The position numbers and the translations under genes are program-made. Shown piece by piece: positions 56,941-64,000 of a stretch of DNA of 64,000 nucleotides. Every line of letters starts with the position of its first letter. Within the stretch, counting starts at the first letter, position 1. The DNA lies in contig LLKB01000005.1 of assembly GCA_001414325.1 (NCBI GenBank), positions 1,239,033-1,303,032 of the forward strand. Reading direction: 5' to 3'. The notes under the pieces were generated by a model that was not told the DNA's origin, ran no database searches, and saw nothing but the letters and a program-made list of their open reading frames with translations. Origin of the DNA: Butyribacter intestini (GTDB lineage: Bacteria; Bacillota; Clostridia; Lachnospirales; Lachnospiraceae).

Positions 56941-57390
56941 ATGAATAACATGAATTTCAGATTACAGGCAGGCTGTCAGCATTGTGGTAACTGCAGCTGC
57001 TGCTCTCAAAAACCAAATAATACGGTTCCGGGATGCAATAGTCATTCTCAAAACCAGAGCAATATGACTTCCGGTTGCAACAGTTGTTCTTCAAATCAAA
57101 ATAACATTGCTTCCGGTTGCAACAACCACCATCAAAATCAACCACGAACATGCGATTCCGGTTGTGAGCGACCACATTACAGACCACCTGAAAATTGTGC
57201 TGATTCAATATCACATATTGATATGCACAATATTCCTATTGGAATAGGCTATGTTCCTTGGCAAAAGTGGAGAAATGTCTATGCCCTCTGCGAAGGTCTT
57301 TCACAGGGAACTATTTTTAAAGAACTTGACTATCCGTTTTACGGCTGTATTCCAAATGGATTTTGCAGTCAAAAAGGAGGTGCGAGATGA
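56941..57390 (+). CDS. cotJA: Spore coat-associated protein CotJA with a Cys/Asn-rich N-terminal extension
   Basis: 149 residues, almost twice the length of Bacillus CotJA. Residues 10-85 are a Cys/Asn/Gln/Ser-rich segment with repeated SGCNSCSSNQNN-like units. The C-terminal part (about 90-145) is the CotJA domain: IPIGIGYVPWQKWRNVYALC, then LSQGTIFKELDYPFYGC. RBS GAAAGGAA before ATG 56941. Its stop overlaps the start of cotJB (ATGA). The Cys-rich part could cross-link or bind metal in the coat (inferred). Confidence 0.9.
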   Translation: MNNMNFRLQAGCQHCGNCSCCSQKPNNTVPGCNSHSQNQSNMTSGCNSCSSNQNNIASGCNNHHQNQPRTCDSGCERPHYRPPENCADSISHIDMHNIPIGIGYVPWQKWRNVYALCEGLSQGTIFKELDYPFYGCIPNGFCSQKGGAR

Positions 57391-57632
57391 ATAGAGAAAA
57401 GCATAACCTCTTGGCATATATCACCCAGGTAAGCTTCGCAATGGACGATACAGTTCTTTTTTTAGACACACACCCATGTGACAAAGATGCTCTGTGTTAT
57501 TACAACAAATTAAAAAAAGAAAGAAAAGAAGCAGTAAATGAATATACACAGAAATATGGTCCACTTTCTAAATATGATGTCCCGGACTCATGTTACTGGG
57601 AATGGGTAAAAGACCCGTGGCCATGGGAATAA
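57387..57632 (+). CDS. cotJB: Spore coat protein CotJB
   Basis: 81 residues. LLAYITQVSFAMDDTVLFLD, THPCDKDALCYYNKLKKERK and YGPLSKYDVPDSCYWEWVKD, then PWPWE are the CotJB signature. RBS AAAGGAGG 6 bases before ATG 57387, which overlaps the cotJA stop by 4 bases. Between cotJA and the cut-off cotJC. Confidence 0.92.
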   Translation: MNREKHNLLAYITQVSFAMDDTVLFLDTHPCDKDALCYYNKLKKERKEAVNEYTQKYGPLSKYDVPDSCYWEWVKDPWPWE

Positions 57633-57728
57633 AAAATAAACTATTGTTGTTTATTATGGATTTTTAAAGTTTCTGTAAATTTCACCAAAAACAAATATCA
57701 TTGCGTTTGACGCAGAAATGAGGAGTTT

Positions 57729-57827
57729 ATGTTTAATTATGAAAAGCGATTGCAATACCCTGTCAATATAACAAGGTGCGACCCAAAAGCTGCAATGGTA
57801 ATAATGAGTCAATACGGTGGTCTGTAG
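57729..57827 (+). pseudogene. cotJC: CotJC (manganese catalase-like coat protein), cut off after 31 codons
   Basis: GAGGAG precedes ATG 57729. The product FNYEKRLQYPVNITRCDPKA, then MVIMSQYGG is a clear CotJC start, normally followed by D-G-E-L-x-A and about 155 more residues of di-manganese catalase. Here it reads L and a stop (TAG 57825). The sequence after that is AT-rich and then phage-like, so the gene is interrupted here by the prophage end. Confidence 0.85.
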
Positions 57828-57905
57828 TCGAGAACTTATAATATATTAAAATGTATTATATTATCTTTTATCGTATTATATCATATTTTATTATATTTAT
57901 GTATA

Positions 57906-57934
57906 TTGAAATCTGCTTTTACATATGATATAAT
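57906..57934 (+). promoter_or_regulatory. Strong promoter of the candidate antitoxin RNA
   Basis: TTGAAA (57906-57911), 17 bases, TATAAT (57929-57934). Perfect -10 and a near-perfect -35. It points towards the small toxin gene. Confidence 0.75.
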
Positions 57935-57940
57935 GTCGTC

Positions 57941-58015
57941 AGACAAAGAGAAGCTATTGTTCCGTAGTGAACACAAAACAAAATCCCCGATGCTGCCAAC
58001 ATCGGGGATTTTTAT
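57941..58015 (+). ncRNA. Candidate type I antitoxin RNA
   Basis: From the promoter to the terminator is an RNA of about 70-75 bases with no coding frame of note. Its segment GCTATTGTTCCGTAGTGAAC (57953-57972) is nearly the same as GCTATATACTCCGTAGTAAAC in the toxin gene's 5' region (58133-58153, same strand), so it is antisense to the toxin mRNA there. This is the plan of par/Fst-type RNAs: convergent, a shared terminator and direct repeats that provide the pairing. Confidence 0.65.
57982..58010. terminator. Shared bidirectional terminator
   Basis: AATCCCCGATG-CTGCCAA-CATCGGGGATT is a perfect 11-bp stem. Plus: TTTTATT follows; minus: TTTGTTTTG. It ends both the candidate antitoxin RNA and the toxin mRNA. 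Confidence 0.9.
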
Positions 58016-58059
58016 TCCTATTTAGCGTGGAAGGCTTAATACCACAGGCTAATTGCCAA

Positions 58060-58155
58060 TCATTTATCACCATCTAACCATTTGATAATGTAATGAGAAA
58101 TCACACTACCCATAACAGTGACAAAAAGAGCTGCTATATACTCCGTAGTAAACAC
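58060..58155 (-). CDS. Small hydrophobic peptide, candidate Fst-like type I toxin
   Basis: 31 residues if begun at GTG 58155: EYIAALFVTVMGSVISHYII, then KWLDGDK. One membrane helix followed by a short charged tail, as in Fst/Ldr-type toxins and the holin-like toxins next to phage lysis modules. GGAAGGAGG lies immediately upstream. The start codon is uncertain (GTG close to the RBS, or the ACG four codons later). Not long enough for most gene finders. The small RNA at 57941-58015 is complementary to its RBS/start region. Confidence 0.6.
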   Translation of the reverse strand: MFTTEYIAALFVTVMGSVISHYIIKWLDGDK

Positions 58156-58231
58156 CTCCTTCCCTTGCCGGTATAGGAGATGGCAACGAATCTATTCTAT
58201 CATATAAATTGACAATTTTCTACATTCAAAC

Positions 58232-58801
58232 TCAATGCACCTTATTATAATTAAGAATCGCCTGCACTATAGCTTTTGCTACGGCATCTCTGTTCTTCTT
58301 GTAAAGTTTTGCATCGTCAGGGTCAGATACAAAACACACCTCAATAAGAAGTGCCGGCTTTGTTGTCTTATTTAAAACCCATAATCCCGATGTTGTTTTC
58401 ACACCTCTGTTTCTAAAACCTACTTTTGAAAGCTGGTTGCATATTCTCTTTGACAAATCTCCTTTGATACCTAAGGTATCTCTCACCCATACCTCTGTTC
58501 CTGTTGTTTTTCCATCCTGTACTTTCTGATGAGCTGCTGAGTTGAAATGAATTGAGATGTCAATATCTCTCGTCTTTGAATTGCACTTGGTACAAATTTT
58601 CCTGAGCACATCCGTCTGGCTTGTTCCGTTGTTCACGGTACAATTATATGCCTTGATACGATTCTTTTTCAAAAGTCTTATTACCTTTTTGGTAATAATT
58701 CTGTCCTCTCTGCTCTCGTCAATATAGTCAGATGCTCCACAAGCTATCTTACCCTGTGGATTGTGACCTCCGTGCACTGTTACTGCTTTTATCTTACTCA
58801 T
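58232..58801 (-). CDS. N-acetylmuramoyl-L-alanine amidase (Amidase_3), phage endolysin
   Basis: 189 residues, a single catalytic domain. Zinc ligands in VTVHGGHNPQGK, ISIHFNSAAH, and the catalytic glutamate in PALLIEVCFVSDPDDAKLY. No signal peptide and no separate wall-binding domain. It cuts the amide between MurNAc and L-Ala at the end of infection. It lies downstream of the holin gene, as in other phage lysis modules. Confidence 0.93.
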   Translation of the reverse strand: MSKIKAVTVHGGHNPQGKIACGASDYIDESREDRIITKKVIRLLKKNRIKAYNCTVNNGTSQTDVLRKICTKCNSKTRDIDISIHFNSAAHQKVQDGKTTGTEVWVRDTLGIKGDLSKRICNQLSKVGFRNRGVKTTSGLWVLNKTTKPALLIEVCFVSDPDDAKLYKKNRDAVAKAIVQAILNYNKVH

Positions 58802-58849
58802 AATCTTTTTCCTCGCTTTCCGTATACTTTATTTACATTATTATTTATT

Positions 58850-59080
58850 CTATTCTTCACACTTTACTTCCGGAAGTCCTGCAACTGATGTCAGAATACT
58901 TACAACTCCGGCTACTACTGCCGAAGATGCTGCCAGTTTCCAATCAACATTTGCCACTGTGCTTCCAACTGCTATTACAGAAACTGCAGTCTGAGCCATT
59001 GTTTTAATCGCTCTGACTGTCGCAGATTTTACCCATTTCTGAGTATCAACACTTACCTTTAACACACAATTTTTAAACAT
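58850..59080 (-). CDS. Phage holin (r1t-like)
   Basis: 76 residues, two membrane segments (RAIKTMAQTAVSVIAVGSTV and AASSAVVAGVVSILTSVAGL) with TQKWVKSATV at the start and GLPEVKCEE at the end, the signature of r1t/LLH-like holins. It makes the membrane hole that lets the endolysin out. Lies 49 bases upstream of the endolysin gene. Confidence 0.9.
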   Translation of the reverse strand: MFKNCVLKVSVDTQKWVKSATVRAIKTMAQTAVSVIAVGSTVANVDWKLAASSAVVAGVVSILTSVAGLPEVKCEE

Positions 59081-59094
59081 AAATAAAAACCTCC

Positions 59095-59340
59095 CTATTT
59101 CTTTTCTAAATCTTCTATTCTGTGATTTGCTACTTTTATATCTTCCGAGTTTAAAGCTACTGATTTTTCAAGCTCATAGACCCGGTCGATTACCTGATTA
59201 TGTACATCCTGCTTTTTCTCCAACTGTTCCAAGCGGTATGCTACAAGAGCCGTTGACCTCTTATTTGCAAAATATGCTCCGCTTGCTGTTCCGAGCATTG
59301 AAATAACTGCTATTATTATTTCTATTGCGTATGCTGCCAT
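59095..59340 (-). CDS. Phage lysis-associated protein (XhlA-like), membrane helix plus coiled coil
   Basis: 81 residues. An N-terminal helix (AIEIIIAVISMLGTASGAYF) is followed by a coiled coil with YRLEQLEKKQDVHNQVIDRV and NHRIEDLEKK. This order and the terminal motif occur in phage hemolysin XhlA-type proteins next to holins. Probably helps lysis. Ends 15 bases before the holin gene. Confidence 0.75.
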   Translation of the reverse strand: MAAYAIEIIIAVISMLGTASGAYFANKRSTALVAYRLEQLEKKQDVHNQVIDRVYELEKSVALNSEDIKVANHRIEDLEKK

Positions 59341-59382
59341 TTGTGTCTCCTTTCCTGCCTTTAGGCATTAAAAAAGAAGCCT

Positions 59383-59496
59383 TTACGCTTCACTATGCTG
59401 TTCGATATATTTTTTTACTTTTACTCTTAATTTCGCCGGAACTTCGTCAATACGATTCAAATCGTATGCAATTCTCTCAGACCAAAATTTCACCAT
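59383..59496 (-). CDS. Small phage protein (CD1375-like)
   Basis: 37 residues from ATG 59496 (AAAGGGGGTGG upstream): VKFWSERIAYDLNRIDEVPA, then KLRVKVKKYIEQHSEA. The A-x-x-I-x-x-x-x-x-x-I-x-x-V-P pattern is that of the short CD1375/XkdX-like proteins between tail and lysis genes of clostridial phages. A frame extending to 59589 lacks an RBS and overlaps the upstream gene. Confidence 0.65.
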   Translation of the reverse strand: MVKFWSERIAYDLNRIDEVPAKLRVKVKKYIEQHSEA

Positions 59497-59512
59497 ATCG
59501 TCCACCCCCTTT

Positions 59513-59875
59513 CTATTCACTATAAATAACCTCTGACATCTCAGCAATGGCATCATTCTGAGTAGTCTGCCCTGCTTCGACTGCCGCAAGTCTCACCTCT
59601 ATATTGCTGAACTGACGGATGTTAAATGACGCTTCAAAAACACTCTTTTCCTCTGAATATAGATATGACACTGTTTCAAAAGTATAATTTTTGTACTCGC
59701 CTATGATTTCGCCAGTATCGTCTTTTATGTACCTAAATGCTGCCAGATTTTCGTCAGTCAGTTTCTTGCGGAAGTTTTCAATATCTTCAGCAGAAGAAAA
59801 ATCTGCTGTGATTTTTGTTGCTGTGCTGCTTTCGGTAACGGTAAGTTCTGTGTTGTCTTTTAATTTGATTTTCAT
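59513..59875 (-). CDS. Phage tail-region protein of unknown function
   Basis: 120 residues from ATG 59875 (AAAGGA 9 bases upstream; an in-frame ATG at 59884 is too close to it). Beta-rich start (IKLKDNTELTVTESSTATKI), C-terminal helix (VRLAAVEAGQTTQNDAIAEM). Typical of small proteins downstream of baseplate genes; not recognised. Confidence 0.65.
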   Translation of the reverse strand: MKIKLKDNTELTVTESSTATKITADFSSAEDIENFRKKLTDENLAAFRYIKDDTGEIIGEYKNYTFETVSYLYSEEKSVFEASFNIRQFSNIEVRLAAVEAGQTTQNDAIAEMSEVIYSE

Positions 59876-59920
59876 AATAGTCATTCCTTTCTTTATATAA
59901 AATCAATATAGAGTTAAATA

Positions 59921-61456
59921 CTATTTGCAATGGTAAAAAAATGCAGCATAAGCATTAAATTCATTGCATGGCGGAGCATATATGCATATGTTTTGTCCGG
60001 ATACATATCCATACGATAATACTATATTTCCGGTTGTACCATCCCAAGCACTAACGGGGAATCTATATTTATCAGTATCTATGGTATGAGCATTGTCGTT
60101 AAGTATAACTAGACTTGTTGGTTCATTTACACGAGCTATATTATAATTAAAACTCACAAACATCATTTTTGTAATTGAATTATAAAACGCTATAACGTTT
60201 TGTGTTCCACTAGCAACATTTGTAAATGTGAATGGCGTTAGGGCATTGTTTAATGCAGAGATACTCTTATCAACACTATCGGCGAAACTGCCCGCCACAC
60301 TTTTATTCAACTGTCTGGCATCCGCAACATATCCCTCTTCGGTCGTAACAAGGTTGTTTGCAATGCCATTTGGTATTCTGCCTTGTGCCTGCCACTGAGT
60401 TAATGTGCCATTCGCAACATCTGCCTGATAACTTGCACTGTTAATTTCAGCAGTTACTACTTTGTTCTGTACTGGATTTGTGCTTGTTGTCGATAACTCG
60501 CTGTCAACTTCTATAACTTCTGCTATTTCTGTCTTTTTAGCATATGTCTCTTGAATGTTGTTACCATTTTCATCTGCTACCGCTTTTTCAACTGCTAAGT
60601 TAGCATTTAATACAGCTACACCGCCTGCAATTCCCTTTTCAGAGTTAGGTATGAAGTTACCGCCTACTATCTGTTGTGCTTCGTCTGCATACTTTTTAGC
60701 CTGTTGACTATAATATTTTGCATTGTCAATATCTTCATTATCTCTCGCCGATGTTTCTCCAACAGCATAAGATTTTGCAATGTTTGAATTATTTTCAACT
60801 TCAGATGCAAGTTGTTCTATCTCTTTCCGGCAACTTGCTGTATATTCAGCCGCAGATGTTGCCGTACTTGAACTCTTTAATGTTGCCGCTGCTGCTTCCT
60901 GTGCTTCTGTTGCTCTATCGCCTGCTATATTAGCACTCTCCTTTGCAGCAGTCGCTGAACTTTCTGCCTCTTGTGCTTTCTCTGTTGTTTTTTGTGCCAA
61001 TGTGCTAACATCTGCAGTTGTCTCTTTTGCACTATCAGCATACTTCTTTGCCTCTGCCACATAATCAGTCAAAGCACTCACATCATCCATCTGCCCTGCA
61101 GCAGTATATGATGGATTTTGAGTAGCTTTAAGGATAAACGGAAATGTACTTATCACAGTGTTATTCTTTGTATTTGAAAATCTGATACAAAATTTTATAT
61201 CTCCTGCTTCATCAGTTTCATTCTTTGTCATTTTGACACTAACTGTATTTCCACTTATGCTTGCATTTATCGTTACTGCTTTATGCTTAGCTGTTTCACC
61301 CTCGCAAACACACAAATCAAATTCAGCTTTATTAACGACAAATTTTTCAGTACCGTTCATTATCGTACAAACAAGGATCGGTGTATCTCCCTGCATACAA
61401 GATATTACAGGTATTGCATTTGCAGATTTTACATTCAATGTTACCGGTATGTTCAT
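59921..61456 (-). CDS. BppU-like phage baseplate upper protein
   Basis: 511 residues. The N-terminal domain (about 1-120; VISCMQGDTPILVCTIMNGT, VKMTKNETDEAGDIKFCIRF) is the BppU immunoglobulin-like fold. Residues 125-270 are an Ala/Ser/Glu-rich coiled coil (TEKAQEAESSATAAKESANI), probably the fibre shaft. A bridging region (STTSTNPVQNKVVTAEINSA) and a C-terminal beta-rich domain follow. It probably attaches receptor-binding proteins to the phage baseplate. Confidence 0.85.
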   Translation of the reverse strand: MNIPVTLNVKSANAIPVISCMQGDTPILVCTIMNGTEKFVVNKAEFDLCVCEGETAKHKAVTINASISGNTVSVKMTKNETDEAGDIKFCIRFSNTKNNTVISTFPFILKATQNPSYTAAGQMDDVSALTDYVAEAKKYADSAKETTADVSTLAQKTTEKAQEAESSATAAKESANIAGDRATEAQEAAAATLKSSSTATSAAEYTASCRKEIEQLASEVENNSNIAKSYAVGETSARDNEDIDNAKYYSQQAKKYADEAQQIVGGNFIPNSEKGIAGGVAVLNANLAVEKAVADENGNNIQETYAKKTEIAEVIEVDSELSTTSTNPVQNKVVTAEINSASYQADVANGTLTQWQAQGRIPNGIANNLVTTEEGYVADARQLNKSVAGSFADSVDKSISALNNALTPFTFTNVASGTQNVIAFYNSITKMMFVSFNYNIARVNEPTSLVILNDNAHTIDTDKYRFPVSAWDGTTGNIVLSYGYVSGQNICIYAPPCNEFNAYAAFFYHCK

Positions 61457-61488
61457 AACTGTCCCCTTTCTAAAATTTATCTGATGAT

Positions 61489-61734
61489 TTAACTCTGTGT
61501 TGTCTCATTATTACTCAACAACAATGAATAAATATAATTATCAAATGTTGTAAAATCTTCCATAACCATTTGCATATTTGCTTCAAAAGCTTCTCTGTCC
61601 TGAATCGCATGCCCTATTGTTGGATTTCCCTCCTGCGGCACGGTTGCGTTCATAAAGGCTATTCTTGTCTCCTTATCACCGTCTTTTAATACACTTACTC
61701 CTGTTACTGTTGTCTGCTTGCTTAATATAACCAT
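61489..61734 (-). CDS. Small phage tail protein of unknown function
   Basis: 81 residues from ATG 61734 (GGGAGG about 10 bases upstream; the frame goes on to 61752). VILSKQTTVTGVSVLKDGDK, then ETRIAFMNATVPQEGNPTIG. Lies between the tail spike and BppU-like genes; not recognised. Confidence 0.6.
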   Translation of the reverse strand: MVILSKQTTVTGVSVLKDGDKETRIAFMNATVPQEGNPTIGHAIQDREAFEANMQMVMEDFTTFDNYIYSLLLSNNETTQS

Positions 61735-61753
61735 ATTATCAATTCCTCCCATG

Positions 61754-64000
61754 TTAATTGTTCAATTTTGCTTTTATTGTCATAACTTCACACTGCAGTT
61801 TTAGAAGTTCAGACTGCAGTTGTCTGTTTCTTTCTATTTCCTGCTTCAAATCTCTTTTTAAACACTGACAATATTTCGTCAGAGGTGCGATAAATTCCTC
61901 GTACCGCAATGCAGCATAGTCTTTTTTATCTTCATCAATTTGAACTGTTGCATATGCGGCAAAATCATCTACCGTACCCAAAACTTTCTCAGCAGTCATT
62001 TTAACTTCATCTGCTATAAATCCGCTGTGAGTTCTTTTGCCATCTATCATTGTGTATGTTGATGGTTTTAATCCGTCTATCAGGTCATTGGCATATTGTT
62101 CATCTATTTCAGTTATATTTGTTTTTAATCGTCTGTCTGATGCCGTAAATGCTCCTGTGTTTGTTGTCACAACTCCATTTTCAGTGCCTACAGCAAACAA
62201 ATACCCGCTGCTCATTTTTTTATCTTTAGCAAAAATTCCGGCAACTGAAAAATCACAATATCCCCTTGTCGTATCAGGAACAGCCTCGTCTAAAGCTCCG
62301 CTTTGGATTCCACATATAAGTTTACCCTGCATTATAGTTGCTTTATAAGGAAACCCATCCCAGCTATAATACCCAGTTCTGGAATGTGTTGAAATAAATG
62401 CCTCTCCGTCTGAATACATATATCCCCTGCCAAACTGCCATCCACCAATTGAGCCATTTCCCGAATCGTCAAGTTTGAAGTTTGTGCTATTAACAACCAA
62501 ACGATTTGAATTAAGTGCAATCTGCTCTGATGATTGATTTATCTCGCTACACACATCACCGACAGAAACCTTACTGCTTATTTGATTTTGTGCCCATGTT
62601 GTAGTGGCATAACTGCTCATCCCGGCTATCGTCTGGTAGTTTCCAAGTATTGCCGAATCTGCTTTCAATGCAAGTTCTGACGCCTTTGCATAATTATTCA
62701 TTCCATCTATTGTCTGATATGTCTCAGAAACCTTTGCATTTATCTCATCTGCTTTAAGATTTAATGCTGCACTTGTTACATAATCTCCCTGGATTACTCC
62801 GACAGTTTCCTTAATACCATCAATGTTCACATCTATTTGCGAAAATTTCTGCTGATTTTCCTCATTCTTTTCATAGAGTTCATACTTAAGGTTTGTGTTG
62901 CTCACTTCAAAGTTTGCCATCTGAACCCTGCCTTCTCTTTCTTCCTCATCAGCACTCAGACAAAATTCTGTCATTGCTCCGCCATATTCAAGTTTTATCG
63001 CATATATCTCTATTACTCCGTCGTCATCTGCCGGAGTAAATACCGGCTTTCCTTTTGTACTGTCATACACAAAATCGTATTTTACCCTTGTTGTTTCTGC
63101 ATTATCAAATACATCTCCTGTTTCAAGAGCAGTCGGATAATATATCATTGCTCTGCCTTTTATGTAAGCTGACAATGTATAAGCCGTACCATCTAAAGGC
63201 ATAAATGAATTATTTACATAAGAATATTTCTTCGACAAACTTATAATGTCACACTCATAATGCTTATGTTCCCTGTCCCATTGCACATTTCCACTATGAG
63301 CGTATTCTCCGACATATATCCATCCCTCCTGCATTTTCTGTGCATCGTAATACTGGTTAAATCCTATGTCGTCAAGAAGCTGCGACACAATCTTATTAAA
63401 TGCGATATTAAGACTCTGTCCCGTAGGATCATAATTTATCGCGCTTGATTTGATAGTCTCAGTTCCATTGTTTATCTCTCTTACCAAAGATGGAATATTT
63501 ACCTTTTTGGCATTGATGTTTGCATCATCCGCCACCATCCTGTCATTGATAAGACCATCTCTTACGGCATTTTCAGTAATTCCACCCTCGCCCCAGAGCA
63601 CATTTCCGTTTTCATCATAAATTATAATAGTATAATTGTTATTTGCATCCTTACCTACCTGGACTCTCACTTTCTTTCCGTCAGAAATCTGCATGGTAGA
63701 GTCTTTCAGCACCATAGTCCCGTCTTTTGACTGTATCTGAACATTATCCGTATAGATTGTACCGGATGCTATCTTATCCGCAGTCAATGACTTGATAAGA
63801 GCATTTGTAATAACTCCGTCACTCATTCTTCCGACAACTGCATCTGAAAAATCCGTTGTGATAATCGTACTTCTGATATTGTTAATAAGTGCCGACTCAG
63901 AAGTAAGATTTTTTATATTTCCAACTGCCGCCGAAATATTATCAGTCGTAATAGTCTGTGCAATAATATTCTTTATGATTGCATCATTAGCCGTAAGACT
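61754..64000 (-). CDS. Phage tail spike/fibre protein with C-terminal S74 chaperone domain (5' end outside window)
   Basis: At least 749 residues; the frame is open to base 64000, so an internal ATG at 63826 is not the true start. Early part: repeated ALIKSLTADKIASGTIYTDN-like units typical of tail proteins. Middle: shaft repeats. End: AFTASDRRLKTNITEIDEQY, then ANDLIDGLKPSTYTMIDGKR and HSGFIADEV, the self-cleaving S74 intramolecular chaperone (its Ser is in AFTASDRRLK), then a coiled coil. Probably the receptor-binding fibre. Confidence 0.88.
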   Translation of the reverse strand, partial: SLTANDAIIKNIIAQTITTDNISAAVGNIKNLTSESALINNIRSTIITTDFSDAVVGRMSDGVITNALIKSLTADKIASGTIYTDNVQIQSKDGTMVLKDSTMQISDGKKVRVQVGKDANNNYTIIIYDENGNVLWGEGGITENAVRDGLINDRMVADDANINAKKVNIPSLVREINNGTETIKSSAINYDPTGQSLNIAFNKIVSQLLDDIGFNQYYDAQKMQEGWIYVGEYAHSGNVQWDREHKHYECDIISLSKKYSYVNNSFMPLDGTAYTLSAYIKGRAMIYYPTALETGDVFDNAETTRVKYDFVYDSTKGKPVFTPADDDGVIEIYAIKLEYGGAMTEFCLSADEEEREGRVQMANFEVSNTNLKYELYEKNEENQQKFSQIDVNIDGIKETVGVIQGDYVTSAALNLKADEINAKVSETYQTIDGMNNYAKASELALKADSAILGNYQTIAGMSSYATTTWAQNQISSKVSVGDVCSEINQSSEQIALNSNRLVVNSTNFKLDDSGNGSIGGWQFGRGYMYSDGEAFISTHSRTGYYSWDGFPYKATIMQGKLICGIQSGALDEAVPDTTRGYCDFSVAGIFAKDKKMSSGYLFAVGTENGVVTTNTGAFTASDRRLKTNITEIDEQYANDLIDGLKPSTYTMIDGKRTHSGFIADEVKMTAEKVLGTVDDFAAYATVQIDEDKKDYAALRYEEFIAPLTKYCQCLKRDLKQEIERNRQLQSELLKLQCEVMTIKAKLNN

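Follow-up and report, generated by a model that had tools for sequence, protein, structure and literature searches.

Few bacterial genes are known to undergo developmental rearrangement; in the accessible text of the reports cited here, the sporulation genes named as carrying such elements are sigK, spsM, spoVFB, spoVR, gerE, yabG and kamA. For SPbeta, which resides in spsM of Bacillus subtilis, both the excision and the sporulation-timed factor SprB have been proven (PMC4191935, PMC6957869). The skin element interrupts sigK in B. subtilis and in C. difficile (PMC4191935, PMC5025042), and further elements are vfbin (spoVFB), vrin (spoVR), gin (gerE), yin (yabG) and phi12-5 (kamA) (PMC4191935, PMC5595907, PMC10747680, PMC6957869). 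The proven elements excise in the mother cell (PMC4191935, PMC5595907, PMC6957869), and excised yin is described as present at all time points and rising with time (PMC10747680). Distant large serine recombinases (LSRs) have been described to converge on one target gene, e.g. that for Mg-chelatase or for prolyl isomerase (PMC10083194); in the main text of that paper the word "catalase" is absent and "sporulation" occurs in a reference only.

The prophage analyzed here, which interrupts cotJC, resembles SPbeta in that a phage with a serine recombinase sits in a mother-cell sporulation gene which its excision is predicted to restore. It differs in the target gene and in the class of the host, and while excision and a timed factor are proven for SPbeta they are predicted for the cotJC element. 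With skin it has in common that a serine recombinase element occupies a late mother-cell gene, but the target is a sigma factor there and a coat protein here, and the host's own sigK-like gene is uninterrupted. Like vfbin, vrin, gin, yin and phi12-5 it is a mobile element which cuts a sporulation gene, and gin and yin also have short core repeats and a recombinase. As far as the accessible text of these reports goes, none of the five lies in cotJC and none shares its gene with other elements, whereas cotJC has five docking points and can be found in up to four pieces. In the use of one gene by distant LSRs, cotJC resembles the targets described in PMC10083194.

The window, i.e. the whole stretch of 64,000 nucleotides that was analyzed, corresponds to positions G000:C5:1239033-1303032 of the host genome (3.61 Mb, 12 contigs). 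The relevant features, including two which lie beyond the window on the same contig, are as follows.

56941..57390, + strand: cotJA, intact (PF11007, 1.8e-15)
57387..57632, + strand: cotJB, intact (PF12652, 2.6e-31)
57729..57827, + strand: cotJC 5' piece, 31 CotJC codons, one codon into the phage, and TAG (PF05067 positions 1-31, 24.2 bits)
57813..57822, + strand: attL core TACGGTGGTC; second copy (attR) at G000:C5:1336519-1336528
57823..64000: left part of the prophage (39,674 bp as a whole, up to G000:C5:1336518), late genes leftward
58232..58801, - strand: endolysin (amidase) (phrog_435, 6.4e-55)
58850..59080, - strand: holin (phrog_443, 2.4e-16)
61754..64000, - strand: tail protein / tail fibre gene, 1175 aa, start past the window (phrog_3558, 4.7e-71)
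G000:C5:1332542-1334035: LSR, 497 aa (PF00239, PF07508 and PF13408; Resolvase, Recombinase, zinc ribbon)

The original prediction had read cotJA and cotJB as intact, which the Pfam matches bear out, and cotJC as a gene with a ribosome site and a correct start which stops at the phage boundary. Indeed, cotJC starts at 57729 downstream of a GAGGAG ribosome site, reads MFNYEKRLQYPVNITRCDPKAAMVIMSQYGGL and ends with a TAG at 57825, after 32 codons. The missing C-terminal part had been expected past position 64000, at the other end of the phage and in the matching frame. A PF05067 search of the host genome located it at G000:C5:1336519-1336989 (profile positions 29-199, 129.4 bits), on the same contig, of 1.47 Mb, and on the same strand as the 5' piece; it reads GGPDGEAGAAMRYL... 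and can be joined to the 5' piece in frame and without a gap. A third, weak match on another contig (13.9 bits, positions 103-147) was rejected as a second cotJC. The genome thus has one cotJC, which is split in two. The host is probably a spore former, as judged from its gene content, which includes spoIVA and a sigK-like gene (one open frame; 283.8 bits, below the curated cut-off of 298.65). To judge from its boundaries, the element lies within the coding sequence of a mother-cell sporulation gene.

The two junction regions have two 10-base words in common, TACGGTGGTC and TTTACATATG. The latter was discarded as the core since it lies outside the reading-frame register. In the in-frame register no match is longer than the former, and an equal length was reached in none of 90 other registers. 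A core repeat near CAATACGGTGGT had been anticipated at both phage ends; it is present at both and in the predicted place, but the first three letters of CAATACGGTGGT do not occur in both ends. The distance from core to core is 39,674 bp, and the phage interrupts cotJC at the GGTGGT codons, close to codon 30. The att site is within the gene and not elsewhere. When the flanks are joined, a CotJC frame of 203 codons without a stop is obtained. Its product is 77-83% identical, over about 201 residues, to intact CotJC from six genomes of the same genus and aligns without gaps to five of these six. A short core repeat at both ends and restoration of the frame are also what is expected of elements of the skin and SPbeta type. 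The reconstructed attP has a dyad on the core, with 12 of 16 positions paired and the centre between the two G of GGTG/GTCT, which was matched in quality by 3 of 500 shuffles. In the same comparison, attB, attL and attR had no dyad. The attP sites of serine integrases usually look like this. A search of the viral_contigs collection with a degenerate pattern of the palindromic attP gave 0 matches and thus no attP of a free phage. All predictions on the prophage-split cotJC that are accessible to sequence comparison are supported.

The prophage has PHROGs matches for terminase, portal, protease, major head, major tail, tape measure, tail, holin and endolysin as well as for replication initiation, HNH and CI/Cro-type genes. 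By genes alone, it looks like a complete temperate phage with packaging, head, tail, lysis, replication and repressor functions. Its G+C content is 36.4%, compared to 35.8% for the host part of the window. The LSR is encoded 2.5 kb from the right end, and from its domains the element has a site-specific serine recombinase of its own. A candidate for the directionality factor is a 64-aa protein (L005:9551-9742, - strand), which is found in this element and in three related site-I elements. Three relatives tested had no Pfam match, a profile built from the four sequences had no hit in a further element when 15,036 small frames were searched, and the protein was not found in the complete element that was examined in G004. 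Its assignment as a recombination directionality factor is suggestive.

Promoters upstream of LSRs were scanned for 50 of the 53 LSRs described below, three having no usable upstream stretch. The scan for sigma-E and sigma-K promoters found no good sigma-E site upstream of the prophage's own LSR. A sigma-E score of at least 12 was reached for 14 of the 50, while 4.2 are expected from shuffles; the controls gave 3 of 50 on the reverse strand, 6-10 of 50 with wrong spacings and 20 of 171 for control genes. Thirteen of the 14 positive LSRs belong to sites I and IIb, a grouping that was seen post hoc. Numbers were 11 versus 3.4 in shuffles for sigma-K (score at least 8) and 8 versus 1.8 for sigma-A (score at least 10). 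The excess of sigma-E-like sites is modest and may be taken as suggestive.

A scan of the genome_contigs collection with the LSR of the prophage yielded eight confirmed loci. Five are 59-88% identical; the three others, from Gastranaerophilales, have 26-30% identity. One locus (L012), with an LSR of 88% identity, is from Eubacterium sp. MSJ-13, which is placed by NCBI in the Eubacteriaceae, class Clostridia. There, the cotJC 5' piece ends at the cut point of the host, near a contig end, and the remainder was not found in that assembly. This relative of the phage codes upstream of the LSR for a 625-aa protein (L012:7357-9234, + strand) which by eye has the look of an NTPase-type (nucleotide-binding) protein and has no PADLOC match. 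The LSR loci L013-L016 are likewise located at cotJC. The viral_contigs collection contains as relatives only an identical copy of the LSR (L109) and L110, in which a piece of cotJC, codons 24-64, lies between a site-I and a IIa-type LSR.

Within the genus, 26 of 28 genomes have a PF05067 match, and the cotJ operons are of two kinds. The cotJC of one kind is 78-100% identical to the reference and was intact in all nine cases of which the full length could be read; the copies of G027 and G007 are truncated by a contig end, so that a cut is possible there. In G027, the second copy of cotJC (L048:4949-5461) starts with codon 32 right at the edge of a contig, and a cut at site I may be present here as well. 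The other kind, with 58-65% for six whole copies, has cuts in many genomes; these lie near codon 30 (site I), at codons 61-68 (site II) and, for G004, close to codon 174 (site IV). Two cuts in one cotJC are present in at least G004, G005, G018 and G027. The docking region of site IV (L014:18073-19745) contains a very divergent LSR, and the match of the C-terminal piece also ends near codon 174 in several genomes, e.g. G013, G246 and G257. In G018, the 5' piece (L024:8398, + strand) and the middle piece (L025:9682, - strand) are about 91 kb apart on one contig; their opposite orientation perhaps reflects an inversion of the stretch, and perhaps one caused by an LSR.

For the family of the host, 396 genomes from 280 genera were drawn evenly, and 250 of these, the host's included, have a cotJC match. 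Copies with a best match of at least 3e-43 quality were counted as full length, including G106, G306 and G355 (1e-43 to 3e-43), which were not re-queried, and the 87 further genomes without a better match were re-queried. Of these, 71 have a cotJC split into complementary pieces at common points, 9 have unpaired or odd pieces, 6 are full length and one is without cotJC. Eight of the nine odd cases are at the same cut points, and the ninth (G056) resembles a frame shift. Fifteen rows, either divergent catalase relatives or pieces without a partner, were removed by hand, which left G136 without a row. The number of 71 is a floor since the search for split copies covered the 87 genomes, with the other 162 matching ones outside it. 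In total there are 80 junctions, 31 at site I, 37 at site II and 12 at site III (profile position about 150, codon about 134), and two sites are cut in nine genomes. The two sides of a junction are on the same contig and strand in 45 cases and on different contigs in 35; none are on the same contig with opposite strands. In the family sample and the class sample described below, split copies also occur in single-contig genomes (G262, G294, G353, G369, G538 and G583). SpoIVA, which is similar in length, was chosen as splitting control in place of sigK because sigma paralogues blur the latter. It has a match in 265 of the 396 genomes (260 over the cut-off and 5 under it), with more than one match in four; best matches far below the rest are found in G061, G256 and G362. 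By eye, 69 of the 71 genomes with split cotJC are in the SpoIVA list, G369 and G418 being missing. To judge from these matches, the control gene is rarely cut.

In the regions of 34 family genomes, an LSR frame was found in all 35 gaps between cotJC pieces, which belong to 33 split genomes; the 34th, G056, has neither a gap nor an LSR. Three LSR frames are short (278, 344 and 355 aa in L072, L085 and L084), so that some of the elements are perhaps no longer mobile. In a tree of 53 LSRs, with those from the genus included, the five site labels require four changes, which is the minimum. Sites I (18), IIa (16), IIb (10) and III (8) each form one side of a branch with 100% bootstrap support, and site IV is a single row. 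The tree omits the distant L028, which had grouped with site II in an earlier tree, and the labels IIa and IIb, while derived from junctions (G030 and G353 span both), were assigned after that tree had been seen. With undivided labels, the earlier tree, which did not include the LSR of our prophage, requires two changes for site II and one each for sites I and III. As judged from these trees, LSR clades follow the cut site within the family, and the long branches between the groups point to several distant LSR lineages having reached cotJC. A second set consists of 16 LSRs which come from families other than the host's and from one viral contig; in 13 cases, the closest LSR with a label has the right site (I, II or III). 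The three exceptions (L111:15943-17568, L112:1164-2759 and L123:3964-5565) are all at site I and belong to other lineages than the site-I LSRs of the family.

By an automatic rule, 43 of 49 junctions rejoin cleanly, i.e. in frame and with neither gap nor stop. The failures are L069, L074, L111 and L115 at site I and L116 and L092 at site II; those at site I were joined by the script at codon 26, the end of its search range, and L074 is clean in another junction analysis. A row for G295 at codon 76 was rejected as an element, as it is a partial duplicate of cotJC: this genome (L075) has a partial second copy of the segment after site I about 1 kb before the main C-terminal part. Within the genus, no stop was found in the 13 split C-terminal parts. 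The median dN/dS is 0.022 for pairs of split copies (6 of 78 pairs with dS below 1.5), 0.030 for pairs of intact copies (1 of 15) and 0.028 for mixed pairs (7 of 78). These values argue that split cotJC is undecayed and under strong purifying selection in the genus, part of which may predate the insertions.

We propose that the prophage is an element of the skin and SPbeta type in a new target gene, to which we assign a probability of roughly three quarters. A temperate siphophage would have used its own LSR to enter cotJC at the GGTGGT codons close to codon 30. The LSR together with a directionality factor would recombine attL and attR, releasing a 39.7-kb circle and giving back the full-length CotJC frame. 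Excision is predicted to occur in the mother cell. This location is likely since a table of PMC3416734 lists cotJC under sigma-E and the proven elements behave in this way.

Alternatively, cotJC might serve the phage as a safe harbour, being dispensable in growth, with excision only on induction and most spores left without CotJC. The complete look of the phage and an LSR lacking a clear sporulation promoter would be consistent with this, and loss of CotJC is tolerated elsewhere, as C. difficile mutants of two CotJC homologues are described as having less catalase activity and otherwise no significant coat defect (PMC11222575). However, the split copies show no decay, the gene is the sole copy in the genome, and small elements of 1.6-4 kb, a size insufficient for a phage, still have an LSR frame and gene halves that rejoin in frame. 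We thus regard a mere harbour as unlikely. That integration inactivated cotJC and left the halves as relics would agree with the interrupted gene and the early stop in the assembled chromosome; it is highly improbable given the gapless in-frame rejoining, the stop-free C-terminal parts in the genus and a dN/dS near 0.02. An assembly artefact, or a true att site elsewhere, has next to no credibility even though 35 of the 80 family junctions are on different contigs, as the halves of the host gene are on one contig, single-contig genomes agree, the breakpoints are recurrent and these assemblies rarely have a broken SpoIVA.

Split cotJC genes are also found beyond the family. In a sample of 243 genomes of the class, 168 have a match, 164 of them outside the family, and the 39 without a strong match were re-queried. 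By our own reading of the rows, 24 of these are split at matching points, in 17 families besides that of the host. G478, G627 and G643 have the look of frame shifts, and the other 12 are single or unpaired pieces or catalase relatives. G557 is cut at sites I, II and III and has four cotJC pieces. The closed chromosome of G538 has three pieces in the correct order, and both gaps between them contain an LSR.

On balance, it seems probable that cotJC is a class-wide docking gene of Clostridia, with at least four distant LSR lineages having converged on five points of about 200 codons, and that in about one quarter of the family species with a cotJC-type match the spore catalase needs one to three programmed excisions in the mother cell. 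In the open literature, as covered by titles and the beginning of abstracts, with subscription papers, preprints and supplements outside this scope, no element in cotJC was found. Should excision restore cotJC in this many anaerobes, programmed rearrangement would be a common trait of anaerobic spore formers. Class-wide docking at cotJC would then amount to a bacterial counterpart of programmed gene assembly, and one that occurs much more often than the scattered known cases. Comparing the many natural replicates could then test why phages and islands choose mother-cell genes. Annotations that list cotJC as missing or as a pseudogene may conceal a functional gene. The survey also supplies dozens of serine recombinases with their natural attL/attR pairs, sorted by target.

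At the right end of the prophage, the LSR is followed by a three-gene cargo of PIN/STAS type (L006:2126-3958, - strand), which codes for a PIN-domain protein, a STAS-like DUF4325 protein and a 306-aa protein with a weak STAS match. Its sole PADLOC matches are weak ones to DrmA for two of the three proteins, and as these are only weak the cargo was not accepted as a defence system on this basis. It possibly represents a toxin-antitoxin or defence module.
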